Assembly: GCF_010211745.1 (NCBI RefSeq) | Contig: NZ_PDWQ01000005.1 | Span: 1 to 64,000, forward strand | Direction: 5' to 3' | Source of the DNA: Pseudoxanthomonas kalamensis DSM 18571 | Lineage (GTDB): Bacteria; Pseudomonadota; Gammaproteobacteria; Xanthomonadales; Xanthomonadaceae | Length of the DNA stretch: 64,000 bases | In this document: piece after piece, positions 2,837 through 50,237 of the stretch | How positions within the stretch are numbered: the stretch's first letter is position 1 | Layout: each line of letters opens with the position of its first letter | Notes under the pieces: generated by a model | The model's database searches: none | What the model was told of the DNA's origin: nothing | Seen by the model: the letters and a program-made list of their open reading frames with translations, nothing else | Made by a program: the position numbers and the translations under genes

Positions 2837-3286
2837 ATGAAGCAAATCAGCATCCATACCGACGGTTCCTGCCTCGGCAATCCCGGTCCCGGCGGCTGGG
2901 CCGCCCTGCTGCGCTACGGCAAGCACGAGCGAGAACTGGCAGGCGGCGAAGCGCACACCACCAACAACCGCATGGAACTGATGGCCGCGATCATGGCGCT
3001 GGAGAGCCTGAAGCATCCGTGCACGGTGTCCCTGTACATCGATTCGCAGTACGTTCGCCAGGGCATCACCGAATGGATGCCGAACTGGCTGCGCCGCAAC
3101 TGGAAAACCGCCGGCGGCGACCCGGTGAAGAACCGCGACCTGTGGGAACGGCTGCACGCGGCTACCGGGCCGCACGCGATCGAGTGGCACTGGGTCAAGG
3201 GCCACAACGGCGACCCCGACAACGAACGCGTGGACGAACTGGCGCGCGAACAGGCCGAGAAGCTGCGCGACGCCGCAGCCGCATGA
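2837..3286 (+). CDS. rnhA: Ribonuclease HI
   Basis: 149 residues, the typical bacterial RNase HI size. It cleaves the RNA strand of RNA:DNA hybrids and so removes R-loops and primers. The catalytic carboxylates are visible: D9 in the [14 protein letters not shown] opening, E47 in NNRMELMA, D69 in YIDSQYV and D133 in DNERVDELA. The conserved histidine is H123 in VKGHNGD. The basic handle typical of E. coli RNase HI is present ([12 protein letters not shown]). The stop overlaps the following acetyltransferase start (ATGA). The nearness of dnaQ matches E. coli, where rnhA and dnaQ are neighbours. Confidence 0.97.
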
Positions 3287-43033: not shown

Positions 43034-43059
43034 CGTCATTCCCGCGAAAGCGGGAATCC
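43034..43059. repeat. Palindromic repeat, CGTCATTCCCGCG type
   Basis: CGTCATTCCCGCGAAAGCGG continuing GAATCC: a stem of ATTCCCGC/GCGGGAAT around GAAA. The copy at 43405-43432 is inverted relative to this one; together they bracket the small integron-like gene. Confidence 0.85.
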
Positions 43060-43079
43060 ATGGGGCTTGTCATTCACTA

Positions 43080-43086
43080 GTTAGGC
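43080..43086 (+). other. Integron-type core site GTTAGGC
   Basis: GTTAGGC matches the GTTRRRY crossover core that forms the left boundary of an inserted integron cassette. It lies 25 bases before the start codon of the following small gene. A 7-base match alone is weak; its value comes from the attC-like structure on the other side of the gene. Confidence 0.45.
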
Positions 43087-43110
43087 GCTCATCGGGGGTT
43101 CGTAAGTGCC

Positions 43111-43320
43111 ATGAAGAAGCGCGGAGAGTTCAGGGTCGCTGTTGCCGTATTTGTCGTTCTCATGGCATTGAGCGCCCTCAATCGGCTTTATCGCGTTTCT
43201 AGTCGTGAGGGCATTCCAATGCTCTCGTCCGAGGCAGTGGCGTCAGGCTGGCTGTACTGGCTCGGCATGGGAATCGGCCTTGTTGTGGCTGGCTTGTACT
43301 ACCTCGGCAAGCGGGACTAG
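43111..43320 (+). CDS. Small two-helix membrane protein, integron-cassette-like gene
   Basis: 69 residues: MKKRGEFRVAVAVFVVLMAL with one hydrophobic helix (about 8-21) and a second near the C-terminus (WLYWLGMGIGLVVAGLYYLG, about 47-66), ending KRD. It has lower GC than its neighbours. It is followed within 20 bases by an attC-like hairpin and preceded by a GTTAGGC core, so it has the form of a single integron cassette. Cassettes often lack promoters and none is clear here. Function unknown; many cassette genes encode small membrane proteins or toxin-antitoxin components, but no partner is seen. Confidence 0.7.
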   Translation: MKKRGEFRVAVAVFVVLMALSALNRLYRVSSREGIPMLSSEAVASGWLYWLGMGIGLVVAGLYYLGKRD

Positions 43321-43340
43321 GCTGGTGCCTTGAAGGCCGC

Positions 43341-43393
43341 GCCCAACAATTCATTCAAGCCGACGCTGCTTCGCAGGTCGGATTGACTCAGGC
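43341..43393 (+). other. attC-like recombination site, truncated
   Basis: GCCCAAC (43341-43347) fits the RYYYAAC inverse core. The sequence that follows closely resembles aadA-type attC sites: CAATTCATTCAAGCCGACGC, then TGCTTCGCAGGTCGGATTGA and CTCAGGC. It folds as CCGAC/GTCGG plus CTGC/GCAG around TTC with one bulged G, the extrahelical base typical of attC. The distal GTTRRRY core expected after CTCAGGC is missing, so the site was cut by later rearrangement. Confidence 0.72.
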
Positions 43394-43404
43394 CTCATTC
43401 GTCC

Positions 43405-43432
43405 GTGGATTCCCGCCTGCGCGGGAATGACG
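43405..43432. repeat. Palindromic repeat, CGTCATTCCCGCG type (inverted copy)
   Basis: GTGGATTCCCGCCTGCGCGG continuing GAATGACG; on the minus strand it reads CGTCATTCCCGCGCAGGCGG. Same family as 43034-43059 and as the copy inside mfd. It lies between the attC-like site and the LAB_N gene end, where it may also serve as a transcript terminator structure. Confidence 0.85.
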
Positions 43433-43451: not shown

Positions 43452-43790
43452 CTACACTCGTTCGCCTTCGGCACGGGTCCGGCGGCCGTGGCGGATGTCC
43501 AGGTACAGGCTGTAGGCCGCGGTGAAGGCCGGGAACAGGTTCTGCAACACACCCACGGCGTCCTGCTTGCTGGAGAACAGGAAGTAGCTCAGCGTCATCG
43601 CGCTGCCCAGCAGGCTCATGTACCAGAACAGCCGCGGGATGACCGGGCGCCCGGCCTTGCGCGAAGCCAGGAACTGCACCAGCCAGCGCGAACCGAACAT
43701 GAAGGCGCCGGTCAGGCCGATCAGCTTCCACGGTGTCAGGTGCAGGCCGGTCCAGGCCAGCGAGACTATCTGTTCGTTCATCATGCCCAT
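43452..43790 (-). CDS. LAB_N (lipid A biosynthesis N-terminal) domain membrane protein
   Basis: 112 residues; ATGs at codons 1, 3 and 4 are all possible starts. The sequence has three hydrophobic helices and matches the LAB_N domain: LIGLTGAFMFGSRWLVQFLASRKAGRPVIP (about 23-52, quoted in two parts: LIGLTGAFMFGSRWLVQ and FLASRKAGRPVIP), then RLFWYMSLLGSAMTLSYFLF. LAB_N proteins are small PQ-loop-like membrane proteins usually found beside a polyprenyl-phosphate glycosyltransferase, as here, 9 bases after the GT2 gene. They may help flip or present the lipid-linked sugar; this is inference. Last gene of the envelope module. Confidence 0.86.
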   Translation of the reverse strand: MGMMNEQIVSLAWTGLHLTPWKLIGLTGAFMFGSRWLVQFLASRKAGRPVIPRLFWYMSLLGSAMTLSYFLFSSKQDAVGVLQNLFPAFTAAYSLYLDIRHGRRTRAEGERV

Positions 43791-43799
43791 CGCGGAAAC

Positions 43800-44528
43800 T
43801 CAGCCGCCCTGCCCCAGTTCGTCGATCGCGGTCAGCTTGCTGCGGCGGATCAGCCAGGCCACCCCGCGTAGGTCGCTGATACCGGCCAGCGCGCGTTGCA
43901 GGTTGTTGTACTTGGACACGCCGCTGGTGCGCGGCCGGTGCGAAACCGGCACGCTGACCGTCTGCCAGCCGGCGCGCTGCATCAACGCCGGCAGATAGCG
44001 GTGCATGTGGTCGAAGTACGGCAAGTCGAGGAAAGCCGCGCGCTCGAACAGCTTGATCCCGCAGCCGGTGTCCGGCGTCTCGTCGCGCAGCATGCGGCTG
44101 CGGATCGCGTTGGCCCATTTCGAAGCCCAGCGCTTGCTGCCGCTGTCTTGGCGATCGACCCGCCAGCCGGCGAACAGCTTGACCTGCGGCGCGGCGGCAG
44201 CGCGCGCGGCCAGCAGCTTGGGGATGTCGGCCGGGTCATTCTGGCCGTCGCCGTCCAAGGTGGCGATCCACGCCCCGCGCGCGGCCTTAATGCCGTTGCG
44301 CACCGCCGTACTCTGCCCGCTGCGGGTCCGGTGATGCAGTACGCGCAACTGCGGATGCCGCGACTGCAGTTCCTGCAGTACCTGCAGCGAACGGTCGTCG
44401 GAGTCATCGTCCACGCAGACGATCTCGAACGCCATCGCGTCGAGCGCGGCCACCGTCTCGGCGATCAGCGGGTCGATGTTGTCCTGTTCGTTGAACACCG
44501 GGATCACCACCGAGACCTGCGGCGTCAT
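43800..44528 (-). CDS. Polyprenyl-phosphate glycosyltransferase (GT2, DPM1/ArnC-like)
   Basis: 242 residues. GT-A fold with VSVVIPVFNEQDNIDPLI (about 5-22), CVDDDSDDRSLQVLQEL (nucleotide site), LDGDGQNDPADIPKLL (DxD motif, about 93-108) and the C-terminal HRPRTSGVSKYNN, all typical of dolichol- or undecaprenyl-phosphate sugar synthases. ArnC carries two C-terminal membrane helices; they are absent here, so the protein is cytosolic or peripheral. Expected reaction: transfer of a sugar from a nucleotide donor to undecaprenyl phosphate for the ArnT-like enzyme. The start overlaps the eptA stop by 4 bases. Confidence 0.9.
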   Translation of the reverse strand: MTPQVSVVIPVFNEQDNIDPLIAETVAALDAMAFEIVCVDDDSDDRSLQVLQELQSRHPQLRVLHHRTRSGQSTAVRNGIKAARGAWIATLDGDGQNDPADIPKLLAARAAAAPQVKLFAGWRVDRQDSGSKRWASKWANAIRSRMLRDETPDTGCGIKLFERAAFLDLPYFDHMHRYLPALMQRAGWQTVSVPVSHRPRTSGVSKYNNLQRALAGISDLRGVAWLIRRSKLTAIDELGQGG

Positions 44529-46216
44529 GGCGCGCCCGCTCCGGCAGCGCCGGCCGGCTGACGACAGGCGGCGAACAGGTCGCGTTCGCGGCGGTAGTCG
44601 CCGGTTTGTACGTCCATGATGCCCAACACCGAATCGAACAGGTTGTCGTGGCTCCAGGCGCGGCGCGTTTCGCCGGCCAGGCAATCGCGGTCGGTGTCGC
44701 TGTCGGCCAGGAAGCCCGGCGAGAACCACATCGTCATCGGCACCCGGGTCTGTTCGTCCGGGGCGATGGCATACGGCACTCCGTGCAGGAACAGGCCCTT
44801 CTCGCCCAGCGATTCGCCATGGTCGGAAACGTAGATCATCCCGCCATGATATCGGGACTGTTGGCCGATCAGATTAATCAAACGGGCCAAAACGTGGTCG
44901 GTGTACCCAATGGCGTTGTCGTAGGCGTTGACGATCTGCGCCGGGCTGCAGTCGCCGAGGTCGGCCGTTTCGCAGACCGGGGTGTAGCGGCGGAACTCCG
45001 GCGGATAGCGCTGGAAATAGTTGGGGCCGTGGTTGCCGACCATGTGCAGCACCACCACCCGGTCGCCGCGGCCATCGCCCATCCAGGTCGCCGCGCGCTC
45101 CAGCAGGATGCCGTCCAGGCAACGGTCGTCGCCGCAGTAGGCGGGATCGCTCGCATTGCTGGTGGATTCGTACGGCAGCCCCTGACACACGCCCTTGCAG
45201 CCGGACTGGTTGTCGCGCCACTCGACCGACACCCCCGCGCGTGCCAGCACGTGCAGCAGGGATTCGTGGCTGCGGATCTTCTTCTTGTCGTAGCCCGTGC
45301 GCCCGTACGGCGAAAACATGCACGGCAGCGAGACCTCGGTGCTGGTGCCGCAGGCACTGACGTCGGTGAAATTCAGCACGTCCGGGATTGCCAGCAGCTC
45401 CGGAGTCGTCTGTCGGGCATAACCGTTCAGGCCCCAGTTGCCTGCGCGCACGGTCTCGCCCACCACCATGACCAGGAGGCGCGGCTTGCGGCCGGCGGGG
45501 CTCGGCAACTGGCGGGCATCGCCGGCCACCGTCAGCAAGGCCGGCTTCGGTCCCGGCGGGTCTTCCTGCAGCACGGTGAACAGCGACACCAAGTAGTTGG
45601 CCGGGGTGACCAGGTAGCGGGCCTGGTGCTGGTTGCGCATCAGGGCCGACAGATGCTGCGACGACGCCAGTGCCGCGGTGACGCCCAGCGCCGCCACGCC
45701 CAGCCACAACGCGACGCGTGCCAGCACGGCGCTTTTCCAGCCACTGCGGCGCACCCGCACCCAGGCCAGCGCCAGCAGGGCGGGAATTGCGGCCGCTGCC
45801 GCGAGCAGCGTGTCCCAGGACAGCAGGTCGCGCGATTCCCTGGCATCGGTGTGCAGCACGTTGCGCACCATGTCCGCATCCAGGTAGATGCCATAGGCAT
45901 CGATGTAATGCCCGGCCAAGGCCGACACGACCAGTAGCAACCCCAGCAACACGCGCGCCCAGGGTCGCCAGACCAGCAGGCTCAATACCAAGGCATTGAC
46001 CGCCAGCAGCAGGCCGAACACGCACAGCGCCCAGCCCGGCGAGCGGGTTGCGTCTTCCATCGCCACCCGCCAGAACGCCTGGTTGCCGAACACGGCGAAA
46101 TACGCGCTGGCCAGCAGGATCAGGATTTCGGTCCGCAACTGCGGACGCTGGCGCAACAGCGCCAGGGCGCGTTCCCGCCATTCGGGAACCGCCTTCGCTG
46201 ACAGGGATGTGCTCAC
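44525..46216 (-). CDS. eptA: Lipid A phosphoethanolamine transferase (EptA-like)
   Basis: 563 residues from a GTG start (MSTSLSAKAV). Five membrane helices occupy about residues 30-195. The periplasmic alkaline-phosphatase-fold domain (about 240-550) has VMVVGETVRAGNWGLNGYAR with catalytic Thr in GTSTEVSLPCMFS (about 291-303; the STEVSLPCMFS motif is diagnostic), zinc ligands in YVSDHGESLGEKGLFLHG, and paired cysteines for disulfides (CKGVC, CGDDRC). It moves phosphoethanolamine from phosphatidylethanolamine to lipid A phosphates, reducing binding of cationic peptides such as polymyxin. It is 165 bases downstream of the arnT-like gene and translationally coupled to the GT2 gene. Confidence 0.93.
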   Translation of the reverse strand: MSTSLSAKAVPEWRERALALLRQRPQLRTEILILLASAYFAVFGNQAFWRVAMEDATRSPGWALCVFGLLLAVNALVLSLLVWRPWARVLLGLLLVVSALAGHYIDAYGIYLDADMVRNVLHTDARESRDLLSWDTLLAAAAAIPALLALAWVRVRRSGWKSAVLARVALWLGVAALGVTAALASSQHLSALMRNQHQARYLVTPANYLVSLFTVLQEDPPGPKPALLTVAGDARQLPSPAGRKPRLLVMVVGETVRAGNWGLNGYARQTTPELLAIPDVLNFTDVSACGTSTEVSLPCMFSPYGRTGYDKKKIRSHESLLHVLARAGVSVEWRDNQSGCKGVCQGLPYESTSNASDPAYCGDDRCLDGILLERAATWMGDGRGDRVVVLHMVGNHGPNYFQRYPPEFRRYTPVCETADLGDCSPAQIVNAYDNAIGYTDHVLARLINLIGQQSRYHGGMIYVSDHGESLGEKGLFLHGVPYAIAPDEQTRVPMTMWFSPGFLADSDTDRDCLAGETRRAWSHDNLFDSVLGIMDVQTGDYRRERDLFAACRQPAGAAGAGAP

Positions 46217-46381
46217 GCGTGCATCGCCTGTACTGGCGACGCGGGAATGACGGACTGCATGTTGCCGGGCTGCGGATGAAGGTCGTTGCGACCGATGCCT
46301 TCATGCTGATGGCGGCCCTGTCGGAGTCGGGTCGGAACGCTGTCGGAAGATCGTTAACCGCAGGCAACGGTCAGCGCGGAT

Positions 46382-48121
46382 TCATTCGCTTTCGTCGCCA
46401 CCTGCCGCATCGGCATCGGCACCGGTTTCGAAGGGCGGCGTGACGCATCCGGGTCTCCATGCCGTGCCGGGTACCAGCCACCAGCGCCGACGATTGGACG
46501 TGCCCGCATAGACGCTGCGCTCGTGATCGACGCAAGGGCCGATCGCTTCCTCCAGCACGAACAGCCAGCGCCGGTCCGGATCGGCCGCCAGCCAGGGGCC
46601 GGCCTCGGCCCATTGCAGGTGCCAGGGTCGTTTGAATCCGAAATCGGTCGCCGGCCGGTCGGCCTGCAACAGGTTGTGTTCGCGCCAGGCCAGCATGCCC
46701 AGTTGCGCGTCCGGCCCGATCCGGGCGCCGACATCTCGCATCAGTTTCTGCGCCGAGCCGTATTCACTGAGTACTGGCTGGATGCCCAATCCGTGGCAGG
46801 TCCACAGCGCCGCCGTCGCCAGCACCAGCGCCGGTCCAAGGCGTTTCCCCCGCCCCCAGATGGCCGCGACCAGGACCAGCCCGCCCAGCGCCAGCAGCGC
46901 ATGACCCAGCCGCGCGGCATCGCCAACCTGCATCTCGCGGCGGGTCATCTGTTCCTGCACCCAGGCCAGTTCGCCATGCAACAGCACTGCGCCCAGCGCC
47001 AGCGTCAGCAGGCCGAGCAGCCACAGCCATGCCGACAGCAGGCGGCGCACCCCGGCCCGCTGTAACAACTCCGGCAACAGCGGTCCCGCCGCCAGGCACA
47101 AGGCCGGCAGCATCGGCAGCACGTACACCCCGCGCTTGCCCGGGCTCAGGCTGAAGAACAGCAGCACCAGTAGCGCCCAGCCCAACAGCAGCCAATGCCG
47201 CGGATCGGCTTGCCGCAGCCGCCGCCACCAAGCCGGCAACAACCACGGCGCCAGCAGCACGCCGGGCAACCACAGGCTCAGCATCACCTGCAGGTAGTAC
47301 CAAAACGGCTTCACGTGGTGCCAGGCATTGGCGTAGCGGGTGCCGGTCTGCTTGAACAGCATTTCCCGCGCATAGGCCTGCAGGGCGGGATCATGGCTGG
47401 ACAGCACGGTCGCCAGCAGCGGCACCAGCCATACGCCGGTGCCGGCAAGGAAGCCCAGCACACCGACCAACCCATGCCAGCCCGAGCCGCTGCCGCGCAG
47501 CGGATCGCGACGGCGGACCAGCAGCCACGGCAGGAATACCAGCAGCGGCAGGAACCCCACCCCCTTGGTCACCGTGCCCAGGCCGGCGGCGAAGGTCCCC
47601 AGCGCCAGCGTTCGCCAGTCCCGCCGCAACAGCAGGTAACGCAATAGCGCCCACAGCGACAGCGTGGTCATGCCGACCAGAACCATGTCGATCTGCGCGC
47701 GCCCGGCCTGCAGGCCGAATTGCAGGGTCGCGAACAGCCCCAGGGTGGCGTAGCGCGCCGCCTGCCGGTTCCACAGCCGCCGCCCCAGGTCGTACACCAG
47801 CCCCAGGGTTAGCAACGCGGCCAGCAGCGAGGGCAGCAAGAAGGCGATCCGCAGGTTGCCGGTCAGCTGGTAGGCCGCCGCCTGCAGCCACATGAACATC
47901 GGTGGCTTTTCGGCGTAGATCTCGCTGCCGCGATGCGGGAACAGCCACTGCCCCGACTCCACCATCTGCTTGGCGGCCAGTGCGAACCGCGGCTCGTCCG
48001 GCGGCGTCGGCTCGCGCAGGCCGATCCCGGCCGCCAGCGACAGCGCCGCCAGCAGCACCAGTACGGCAAAGCCGTAGCGCTCCGACCAGGCCTGCCGCGC
48101 CGGGGGTCGCAAACCGCTCAA
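46382..48121 (-). CDS. ArnT/PMT-family glycosyltransferase (GT83)
   Basis: 579 residues if translation starts at the TTG at 48121, supported by GGGAG 9 bases upstream; the frame is open much further but that stretch overlaps the divergent regulator. Multi-spanning GT-C protein: REPTPPDEPRFALAAKQMVE with the catalytic DEPR-type acid (about 37-56), GSEIYAEKPPMFMWLQA (about 66-82), then about ten hydrophobic helices and a periplasmic C-terminal domain. ArnT moves a sugar from undecaprenyl phosphate to lipid A. No arnA, arnB or arnD is nearby, so the sugar need not be L-Ara4N; a hexose or hexosamine as in Bordetella or Francisella is possible. Confidence 0.88.
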   Translation of the reverse strand: MSGLRPPARQAWSERYGFAVLVLLAALSLAAGIGLREPTPPDEPRFALAAKQMVESGQWLFPHRGSEIYAEKPPMFMWLQAAAYQLTGNLRIAFLLPSLLAALLTLGLVYDLGRRLWNRQAARYATLGLFATLQFGLQAGRAQIDMVLVGMTTLSLWALLRYLLLRRDWRTLALGTFAAGLGTVTKGVGFLPLLVFLPWLLVRRRDPLRGSGSGWHGLVGVLGFLAGTGVWLVPLLATVLSSHDPALQAYAREMLFKQTGTRYANAWHHVKPFWYYLQVMLSLWLPGVLLAPWLLPAWWRRLRQADPRHWLLLGWALLVLLFFSLSPGKRGVYVLPMLPALCLAAGPLLPELLQRAGVRRLLSAWLWLLGLLTLALGAVLLHGELAWVQEQMTRREMQVGDAARLGHALLALGGLVLVAAIWGRGKRLGPALVLATAALWTCHGLGIQPVLSEYGSAQKLMRDVGARIGPDAQLGMLAWREHNLLQADRPATDFGFKRPWHLQWAEAGPWLAADPDRRWLFVLEEAIGPCVDHERSVYAGTSNRRRWWLVPGTAWRPGCVTPPFETGADADAAGGDESE

Positions 48122-48177
48122 ATCCGCTGTCTCCCGATCCGCTCGTGCATACCCTGGCCGATGAAACGTGTAAGGTT

Positions 48178-48196
48178 TGTCGGAACGGCTCCGACA
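48178..48196. promoter_or_regulatory. Candidate operator in arnT/response-regulator intergenic region
   Basis: TGTCGGA-N5-TCCGACA is a perfect 7-bp inverted repeat in the 159-base gap between two divergent units. It may bind a dimeric regulator, possibly the adjacent response regulator, or be a small hairpin. No -35/-10 pair is certain nearby. Confidence 0.35.
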
Positions 48197-48280
48197 GGCT
48201 TGCGACATTTCCCCGCACATGCTGCGGAGCCCGTCGAAGCCGCCGGGATGATAGCGGCAACCTGCCGAGGATGTGCAGTC

Positions 48281-48979
48281 ATGCGTCTGCTGGTGATCGA
48301 GGACAACCGCAGTCTGGTCGCGAACCTGTTCGACTACTTCGAAGCCCGCGGCCATACCCTGGACGCGGCGCCGGACGGCGTCACTGGCCTGCACCTGGCC
48401 AGCTGCCACCACTACGACGCCATCGTGCTGGACTGGATGCTGCCGCGGATGAACGGCCCCGAAGTGCTGTACAAACTGCGCAACGAACACGGCTCGGACG
48501 TGCCGGTGATCATGCTGACCGCACGCGACGAACTGCCGGACAAGATCGTCGGCTTCCGCTCCGGGGCCGACGACTACCTGACCAAACCCTTCGCCCTGCC
48601 GGAACTGGAAGTACGGCTGGAAGCCCTGTTGGCCCGCGCCAGCGGGCAGCGCGCCAGGCGGGTGCTGGAAGTCGCCGACCTGCGTCTGGACCTGGGCACG
48701 CTGGAAGCCACCCGCGGCGGGCAGTCGCTGCACCTGTACCCGGCCTGCCGCAAACTGCTGGAAGTGCTGATGCTGGCCAGCCCGGCCGCGGTCACCCGCG
48801 AACGGCTGGAATACGCGCTGTGGGGCGACAGCCCGCCCGATGGCGACATGCTGCGCTCGCATATCTACGAACTCCGGCGCAGCGTCGATGGACCGTTCGA
48901 GACCAAGCTGATCCACACCCTGCCGCGCACCGGATACCGGATCGGCCTGCCCTACGCCTCGGCCGCCGATGGACGATAG
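48281..48979 (+). CDS. OmpR-family response regulator
   Basis: 232 residues. Receiver domain 1-120 with acidic pocket E7/D8, phosphorylation site D51 (IVLDWMLPRM), T80 and K102 (YLTKPF). The winged-helix DNA-binding domain (about 130-225) has the OmpR-type end IYELRRSVDGPFETKLIHTLPRTGYRI (quoted as IYELRRSVDG and IHTLPRTGYRI). Overlaps the kinase by 11 bases. The divergent position from arnT, eptA and the GT2 gene suggests that it regulates lipid A modification, as ColR, PhoP or PmrA do in related bacteria. Which of these it is orthologous to cannot be settled here. Confidence 0.9.
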   Translation: MRLLVIEDNRSLVANLFDYFEARGHTLDAAPDGVTGLHLASCHHYDAIVLDWMLPRMNGPEVLYKLRNEHGSDVPVIMLTARDELPDKIVGFRSGADDYLTKPFALPELEVRLEALLARASGQRARRVLEVADLRLDLGTLEATRGGQSLHLYPACRKLLEVLMLASPAAVTRERLEYALWGDSPPDGDMLRSHIYELRRSVDGPFETKLIHTLPRTGYRIGLPYASAADGR

Positions 48980-50237
48980 GCACAGCCTGCGCCGACGCAT
49001 CCTGCACTGGCTCGGCATCTACGCCGTGCTGCTGATGCTGGCGGTGTTCGTGCAGGGATTCGCCCTCAACGAAAGCGCCGAACGCCTGGTCTGGCAATCG
49101 CTGCTGGACGCCGAGATGGACAACTACCTGCAACGGCGCGCCGAAGACCCGGCCTACCGCTGGCGCGATACCGGCCACATCCACCTGTACGCCCCCGACA
49201 GCGATGCGCCGACGCCCGAACCGTTGCTGCAACTGCCGGCCGGCCTGCACGATGAAATCGACGTCGACGGCAGGCTGGTGGCCTCCCTGATCCGCGACGT
49301 CGACGGCACGCGCTATGCGCTGACCCTGGGCATCGACGAATTCGAGCAGCAGGAGCGCCGGTTGACCGGGCTGATCGTCATCACCACCCTGCTGCTGGTG
49401 CTGGTGCTGGCGGCGCTGGTCGCCTGGGGACTGCGGCGGATGCTGCGCCCGCTGTCGGACCTGGCCAGCGATATCGCCACCCTGAAACCCGACCGCCACG
49501 GCCAGCGGATCGAGGTCGCCCCCACGGCAGGTTCCGAACTGCACGTCATCGCCGGCGCGCTGAACGACTACCTGCGCCGGCACGAATTGTTCGTCGAACG
49601 CGAGCGCGTCTTCATCGATACCGCCAGCCACGAACTGCGCACGCCGATCGCGGTGATCGCCGGCGCCACCGAACTGGCGCTGGAGCAACCCGACCTGTCG
49701 GCCGCCACCCGCGCCCGCATCCAGCGCGCCGACCGCACCGCGCGCGACGTCGAGCAACTGATTTCCCTGCTGCTGGTGCTGGCGAAGGAGCCGGAAAAAC
49801 TGTCGCGCAACAACGACCGCCTCGCCCTCGACGAGCTGATCCCGGATATCGTCGACGACCACCGCTACCTGGCCCGCGACAAGGACCTCGACATCGTCGC
49901 CGAACCGCTGCCGCACTGCGAGATCGTCGCCCCGCTCGCGGTGGTGCAGGCCGCAATCGGCAACCTGCTGCGCAATGCCATCGAGAAGAGCGACCAGGGC
50001 ACCATCCACGTCCGCCTCAGCACCGACGCCACCGTCACCATCGAGGACCCCGGCCACGGCATGACGCCCGAACAGATCAGCCGCATCTACGCCCAGGTCG
50101 CCCGCGGTGGCGGTCGCGATGGCGGCGGCATCGGCCTGGATCTGATCAGCCGCCTGTGCGAACACCTGGGCTGGCGATTGAACATCGAATCCGCCCCTGG
50201 GCACGGCACGATCAGCACGCTGCGCTTCCCGCAATAG
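48969..50237 (+). CDS. Sensor histidine kinase of the envelope module
   Basis: 422 residues. Membrane helices at about 13-31 and 134-154 enclose a periplasmic sensor of about 100 residues with several Asp/Glu (AEDPAYRWRDT, PDSDAPTPEP, DEIDVDG), compatible with metal or cationic peptide sensing. A HAMP-like segment follows (about 155-205), then the H box IDTASHELRTPIAV with H221, N box NLLRNAIEKS (about 334-343), DPGHGM (G1) and GGGIGLDLIS (G2). It autophosphorylates and passes phosphate to the upstream-encoded regulator. The overlap of the two genes indicates translational coupling. Confidence 0.9.
   Translation: MDDRHSLRRRILHWLGIYAVLLMLAVFVQGFALNESAERLVWQSLLDAEMDNYLQRRAEDPAYRWRDTGHIHLYAPDSDAPTPEPLLQLPAGLHDEIDVDGRLVASLIRDVDGTRYALTLGIDEFEQQERRLTGLIVITTLLLVLVLAALVAWGLRRMLRPLSDLASDIATLKPDRHGQRIEVAPTAGSELHVIAGALNDYLRRHELFVERERVFIDTASHELRTPIAVIAGATELALEQPDLSAATRARIQRADRTARDVEQLISLLLVLAKEPEKLSRNNDRLALDELIPDIVDDHRYLARDKDLDIVAEPLPHCEIVAPLAVVQAAIGNLLRNAIEKSDQGTIHVRLSTDATVTIEDPGHGMTPEQISRIYAQVARGGGRDGGGIGLDLISRLCEHLGWRLNIESAPGHGTISTLRFPQ

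Follow-up and report, generated by a model that had tools for sequence, protein, structure and literature searches.

Positions 43034-43432 of the window, the 64,000-nucleotide stretch of the Pseudoxanthomonas kalamensis DSM 18571 genome analysed here, hold a solitary integron-type gene cassette that lies outside any integron. It consists of one small gene and one degraded attC recombination site, with no integrase beside it, and from its sequence we class it as a single attC site lacking an integron-integrase (SALIN). We consider it likely, with fair assurance, that this lone cassette came from the cassette pool of the host genus and was inserted at a secondary site of the attG type between two inverted repetitive extragenic palindromic (REP) sequences downstream of etfQO. 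The unit and its boundaries are as follows; contigs of the assembly are numbered with C, other genomes with G and examined stretches with L.

43034-43060, + strand: left REP hairpin (CGTCATTCCCGCG AAAG CGGGAATCCA), located by pattern search, with an exact 27-base copy at C73:721696-721722 and an exact 25-base copy at C138:5952-5976
43080-43086, + strand: 5' core site GTTAGGC, the left cassette boundary (G|TTAGGC), found nowhere else in the window on either strand
43081-43393, + strand: inserted unit, one gene cassette of 313 bp, delimited by the core site and by the point where attC homology stops
43111-43320, + strand: cassette open reading frame (ORF) of 69 aa, ATG at 43111 and TAG at 43318-43320, with a hydrophobic N-terminal half and homologues in G211 and G210
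43341-43393, + strand: degraded attC, identified by covariance model, with R'' GCCCAAC, the L''/L' stem and the end CAGGC, lacking R' (GTTRRRY)
43403-43432, - strand: right REP hairpin, in the opposite orientation to the left one, a 90% match to the left copy's reverse complement, copied exactly over 28 and over 29 bases at other places in the genome

The attC was identified with a covariance model built from 23 aligned array sites of the same genome, with the window site excluded and the attC fold given as structure. Over the 64-kb window the sole match at E values up to 10 was 43341-43403 (39.5 bits, E 3.9e-8), far above background. As the first-pass annotation had read from the letters, GCCCAAC follows the stop codon at a distance of 20 bases (43341-43347), and the top strand forms a hairpin with a bulged G. 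The stems are CCGAC/GTCGG and CTGC/GCAG, and the bulged G is at 43365. The site has the recognisable R''/L''/L' architecture 3' of the ORF, but several pairs are broken and the distal GTTRRRY core is indeed lost, with CTCATTC standing after CAGGC (43389-43393). R'' carries C for T, and model position 42 sets A against G. On our reading of the fold, a C that is extrahelical in the array sites could pair in the window attC, because the opposite base is now G. The folding energy of the hairpin is unremarkable against shuffled sequences (z of -0.85 for the top strand and -0.49 for the bottom strand). The first-pass annotation had likened the sequence to aadA-type attC sites; as a correction, the closest attC relatives found are the genome's own array sites (80-87% identity). 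When the 399-bp stretch was searched as DNA against its own genome, 61 matches were obtained, and a long series of these covers the attC alone, mainly from one array (C149 and the end of C94).

At its 5' end the unit has the core site of an integron cassette. The window's + strand has a single GTTAGGC and no GCCTAAC, the reverse complement; 24 bases separate the end of GTTAGGC from the start codon, so the core does stand shortly before the gene, as had been noted. The gene is also AT-richer, as claimed, with 57.1% G+C against 67.6% for the window, and lies nearer in composition to the genome's own cassette array (55.1% in its C94 part). Its G+C content is matched or undercut by 13 of 608 window tiles of 210 bp, one of the 13 overlapping the ORF itself.

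A search for the encoded protein gave 1 of 198 family genomes and 3 of 397 order genomes, the three belonging to one genus. The other two copies, in G211 (53% identity) and G210 (38%), belong to complete cassettes, GTTAGGCGC-gene-attC-GTTAGG, inside attC arrays. The gene is thus not kept at this locus, and by this distribution it is part of the mobile cassette pool rather than of the lineage core genome. The first-pass annotation had set two tests beforehand, namely an attC model scoring the site as background and conservation of the gene at this locus across the family, and the identification as a solitary cassette outside an integron survived both. The protein has no match in plasmids or viral contigs, nor in Pfam or NCBIfam, and an Rfam scan returned three tRNAs only. 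Comparison of the window and G211 genes gave a pN of 0.30 and a pS of 0.61 over 69 codons, a pattern that points to purifying selection within the family and is uninformative on the time since insertion. With a 19-residue hydropathy window, one hydrophobic segment passes in the window protein and in that of G211 and none in that of G210; our guess is that the product may be a small membrane protein.

The same genome carries a resident integron. The model, run over the whole genome, returned at least 54 hits: 37 sites of the array, 13 that lie off it at 10 loci, and 4 echoes of array sites on the opposite strand; these genome counts are lower bounds, as scoring took in 150 of the 3715 first-look candidates. 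At least 5 array attCs lie on C149 beside intI (C149:1-4289, L010) and at least 32 on C94 (C94:466520-478688, L009). Since the contig ends face each other and both carry the same cassette start, we infer that the two are probably halves of one array split in the assembly. The integrase ORF occupies L010 3162-4289, or encodes 336 aa when read from the ATG at 3279; it contains the two expected Pfam domains, and its TIGR02249 score of 479 bits compares with a cut-off of 265. No premature stop appeared in the ORF listing, and the ORF is intact-looking. Across the genome, the integron-integrase family search gave matches on C149 (the integron contig), C73 and C127 only. The earlier statement that the window has no integrase is therefore borne out, with no match on the window contig in that search, and its picture of a cassette without an integrase holds for the vicinity, but the genome does have an integrase, which lies next to an array of attCs of the same type on a different contig.

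The ten off-array loci are the window, C73:196k, C94:207k, C73:239k, C73:322k, C94:320k, C105:225k, C73:597k, C84:70k and C84:338k, with two attC sites each at C94:207k, C73:322k, C73:597k and C84:338k. The 13 sites include one weak member, C84:337764 (E 0.67); an extra long attC at C94:207351, known from BLAST and reading only, comes on top of them. Another solitary cassette, at C73:239k (L011), begins and ends with GATCGGC, as though the core at the target had been duplicated or converted. At C73:195419-196148 (L238), a degenerate second integrase head (195.42-195.79k) is followed by one cassette; the head copy measures 368 bp at 89.7% identity and covers residues 1-66 in two frames, and the segment appears to be a truncated duplicate of the integron head. 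In eight further genomes of the genus the model gave from at least 6 to at least 25 hits each. These fall at several far-apart places in the single-contig genomes G117 and G225, and all 10 listed for G198 lie within ~10 kb; in draft genomes such as G203, contig breaks may divide one array.

The two oppositely oriented repeats that had been described as bracketing the unit are present, at 43034-43060 and 43403-43432. They are inverted palindromes of a repeated intergenic family, as in a REP pair or bacterial interspersed mosaic element (BIME). The REP pattern, searched through the genome with up to two mismatches, gave 22 forward and 16 reverse hits, and the reversed control gave 0 and 0. The gap between the window REPs is 351 bp and becomes 38 bp once 43081-43393 (313 bp) is removed. 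In eight other inverted pairs the REPs are separated by 21, 21, 22, 22, 33, 67, 36 and 54 bp with no gene between; pairs were measured with imperfect members allowed, and in two of the eight the partner has three mismatches. Left out of the pair set were C73:595.4k (direct orientation), C94:42.2k (a different core) and C105:378776 (no partner in the stretch examined). These pairs, and a gene that lies within a ninth, wider one, are located as follows.

C84:71.9-72.6k (four pairs), C73:721.6k, C138:6.0k, C94:135.0k and C116:217.8k: the eight close inverted REP pairs
C105:278992-279313 (L234 992-1313): small GIY-YIG-domain gene (E 6.5e-17) between inverted REPs

No match to the REP-associated Y1 transposase (PF01797) was found in the genome at E values up to 0.001, and a compound element mobilised by a REP transposase was rejected on this ground. 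Many REP-bearing genomes may lack this transposase.

An association between cassettes and REPs was sought in the genome and in the family. Among the 10 off-array loci, only the window's cassette stands between REPs; REPs lie ~0.5 and ~1 kb off at two others (C73:597k and C84:70k), and the remaining seven have no REP pattern match in the stretches examined. The family screen covered 395 genomes and required an attC stem followed by TTCCCGC within ~80 bases, a pattern that misses imperfect REPs and REPs on the left side only. It gave 48 matches in 35 genomes, and the DNA of 47 places was inspected, the 48th match overlapping one of them; the stretch L314 runs off its contig. A REP palindrome was present at 2 of the 47 places, the window and G023:C27. 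At the latter (~13.8k, L246) only the first half of the cassette attC is left (18.5 bits), one REP lies 46 bp beyond the cassette and another ~1.4 kb upstream, the two in direct orientation. We rejected REPs as a general cassette target, as one locus of ten here and one more in the family screen are too few for a preference. That CGTC-type REPs are preferred landing sites of the integron integrase, an alternative docking place for cassettes of which the window and G023 would be two traces, strikes us as highly improbable. Among the titles and abstract openings returned by searches of an open-access library, we saw none on cassettes inside REP pairs; three of the papers contain both REP and attC as words.

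Upstream of the unit is etfQO, and downstream lie, convergent with it, genes for a LAB_N protein, a family-2 glycosyltransferase, an EptA/EptB-type phosphoethanolamine transferase and a PMT_2 protein. The etfQO and LAB_N genes are also close together in at least 9 of 38 genomes of the genus, with LAB_N in the other orientation (tandem); the cassette therefore sits at a synteny breakpoint, LAB_N being convergent with etfQO here. The whole block from LAB_N to PMT_2 (43452-49018) is inverted relative to etfQO when compared with at least nine relatives in the genus. Within it, the EptA/EptB-type gene (44525-46216) stands between the PMT_2 and glycosyltransferase genes, which are adjacent in G203 and G212, and a half REP palindrome, CGCGGGAATGACG, is found at 46240, directly upstream of this gene. 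The nearest named EtfQO loci are those of P. helianthi (85%) and P. spadix (83%). A comparison of the etfQO-side junction with sister genomes had been proposed, and 10 loci of the genus downstream of etfQO gave no attC match at E values up to 1. These ten relatives' loci lack the unit, yet none of them appears to be a true empty site.

It is likely that the cassette was drawn from the integron cassette pool of the host genus and that the folded bottom strand of its attC was recombined with a G|NN target; the enzyme would be the integrase of the resident chromosomal integron, either the present one or an earlier copy. The REP pair would have been in place first and the cassette inserted into it second. 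This order is the simplest since the eight close inverted pairs, with gaps of 21-67 bp, enclose no gene. Because there is no GTTRRRY on the right side and the attC has drifted, with a broken L-stem pair and an altered R'', the cassette is now probably fixed in place, and its degraded attC is probably immobile at present.

Several observations weigh against this origin. For an insertion by attC and attG recombination, the 5' junction is exact; the 3' junction lacks the expected G, reading CAGGC|CTCATT instead of the CAGGCG|NN predicted from a clean G|TT crossover, so that the insertion model has to invoke a substitution or a small deletion. A missing R' is otherwise what is expected of a cassette at a secondary site. 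No pre-insertion site was found in relatives of the genus, where the intergenic DNA inspected was not alignable by eye. The cassette's 5' end is complementary to its own R'' at 8 of 12 positions, no better than re-paired array cassettes, and the window attC scores under every one of the 37 array sites (41.1-93.2 bits). Finally, the ninth inverted REP pair (C105:278972/279314, gap 322 bp) holds the GIY-YIG gene and is without an attC match, indicating that cassette insertion is not the only way for a lone gene to come to lie between two REPs.

This last pair bears on the order of events. The first-pass annotation had the unit later edged by repeat elements, which is probably the wrong way round in view of the eight gene-free pairs; the wide pair with a non-cassette gene inside tells the other way. 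If the cassette had come first, by any route, the two REPs would have settled on either side later. The pair around the GIY-YIG gene is in keeping with such a history, and so is the cut-off cassette of G023 with its REP at 46 bp and its second, directly oriented one upstream. Against it, the genome search for a REP-associated Y1 transposase came back empty, and the eight close pairs have no gene between them. We regard a later arrival of the REPs as unlikely, and insertion into an existing pair as the likelier course, short of proof. Alternatively, a larger cluster of attC sites lacking an integron-integrase (CALIN) could once have stood here, with several cassettes of which all but one were deleted. 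Four other off-array loci hold two attC sites each, and CALINs are common in Xanthomonas according to PMC12444791. The REP pair, however, closes to an ordinary 38 bp when exactly one cassette is removed, and a deletion that left one cassette between intact REPs at that spacing would need a coincidence; we find such a relic quite unlikely.

Homologous or illegitimate recombination might also have brought the cassette from the array without an integrase, perhaps together with the inversion of the LAB_N-glycosyltransferase block. The position at a synteny breakpoint and a 3' junction that is not a clean integrase product speak for this route, whereas the 5' junction coincides exactly with the cassette core GTTAGGC and the array stretches L009 and L010 have no REP pattern match. 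On balance this route seems very doubtful. The notion that an ordinary small gene happens to precede a hairpin that merely resembles attC draws on the usual folding energy of that hairpin; with an E value of 3.9e-8 in 64 kb from an independent model, and with homologous proteins that are products of cassette genes in two other genomes, we give it practically no chance.

Taken together, a secondary-site insertion between inverted REPs remains our preferred explanation of a solitary cassette that has decayed in place outside the array, a real but ordinary element of a known kind. It gives a clear natural example: the cassette has settled away from the integron, which the genome retains along with about ten such loci. 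The single case leaves the view of integrons unchanged, and the genus can serve as a natural data set on the places at which a chromosomal integrase deposits cassettes.

SALIN is a term for single attC sites in PMC12690207, and IntegronFinder 2.0 (PMC9024848) allows that single-attC CALINs can be true positives. The window unit resembles these elements in having one cassette, a recognisable attC and no intI nearby, and differs in that it lacks the R' core, its attC is degraded and an inverted REP pair brackets it. As to the repeats, CGTC-tagged REPs are the topic of PMC3733652 and REPs as insertion-sequence targets that of PMC1525189, judging from their titles. The window REPs look like the former, being short palindromes that start with CGTC and are paired in opposite orientation as in BIMEs; here the gap of 351 bp is filled by a cassette, and the genome has no Y1 transposase match.

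The mode of insertion has its own counterpart. Integron cassettes reportedly integrate at attG sites. As cited in PMC12444791, the attG work (Loot et al. 2024) concerned cassette libraries in E. coli. The window cassette likewise stands outside attI/attC arrays, as recombination of attC with a genomic site would leave it, whereas the event here is a natural one that we only infer, with an imperfect 3' junction. A further parallel is Xanthomonas, a related genus of the same family. There, according to PMC12444791, CALINs occur at seven loci besides ilvD, and, as in our genome, cassettes are found at several chromosomal loci and intI at one place; the window differs in holding a single cassette, in a Pseudoxanthomonas relative.
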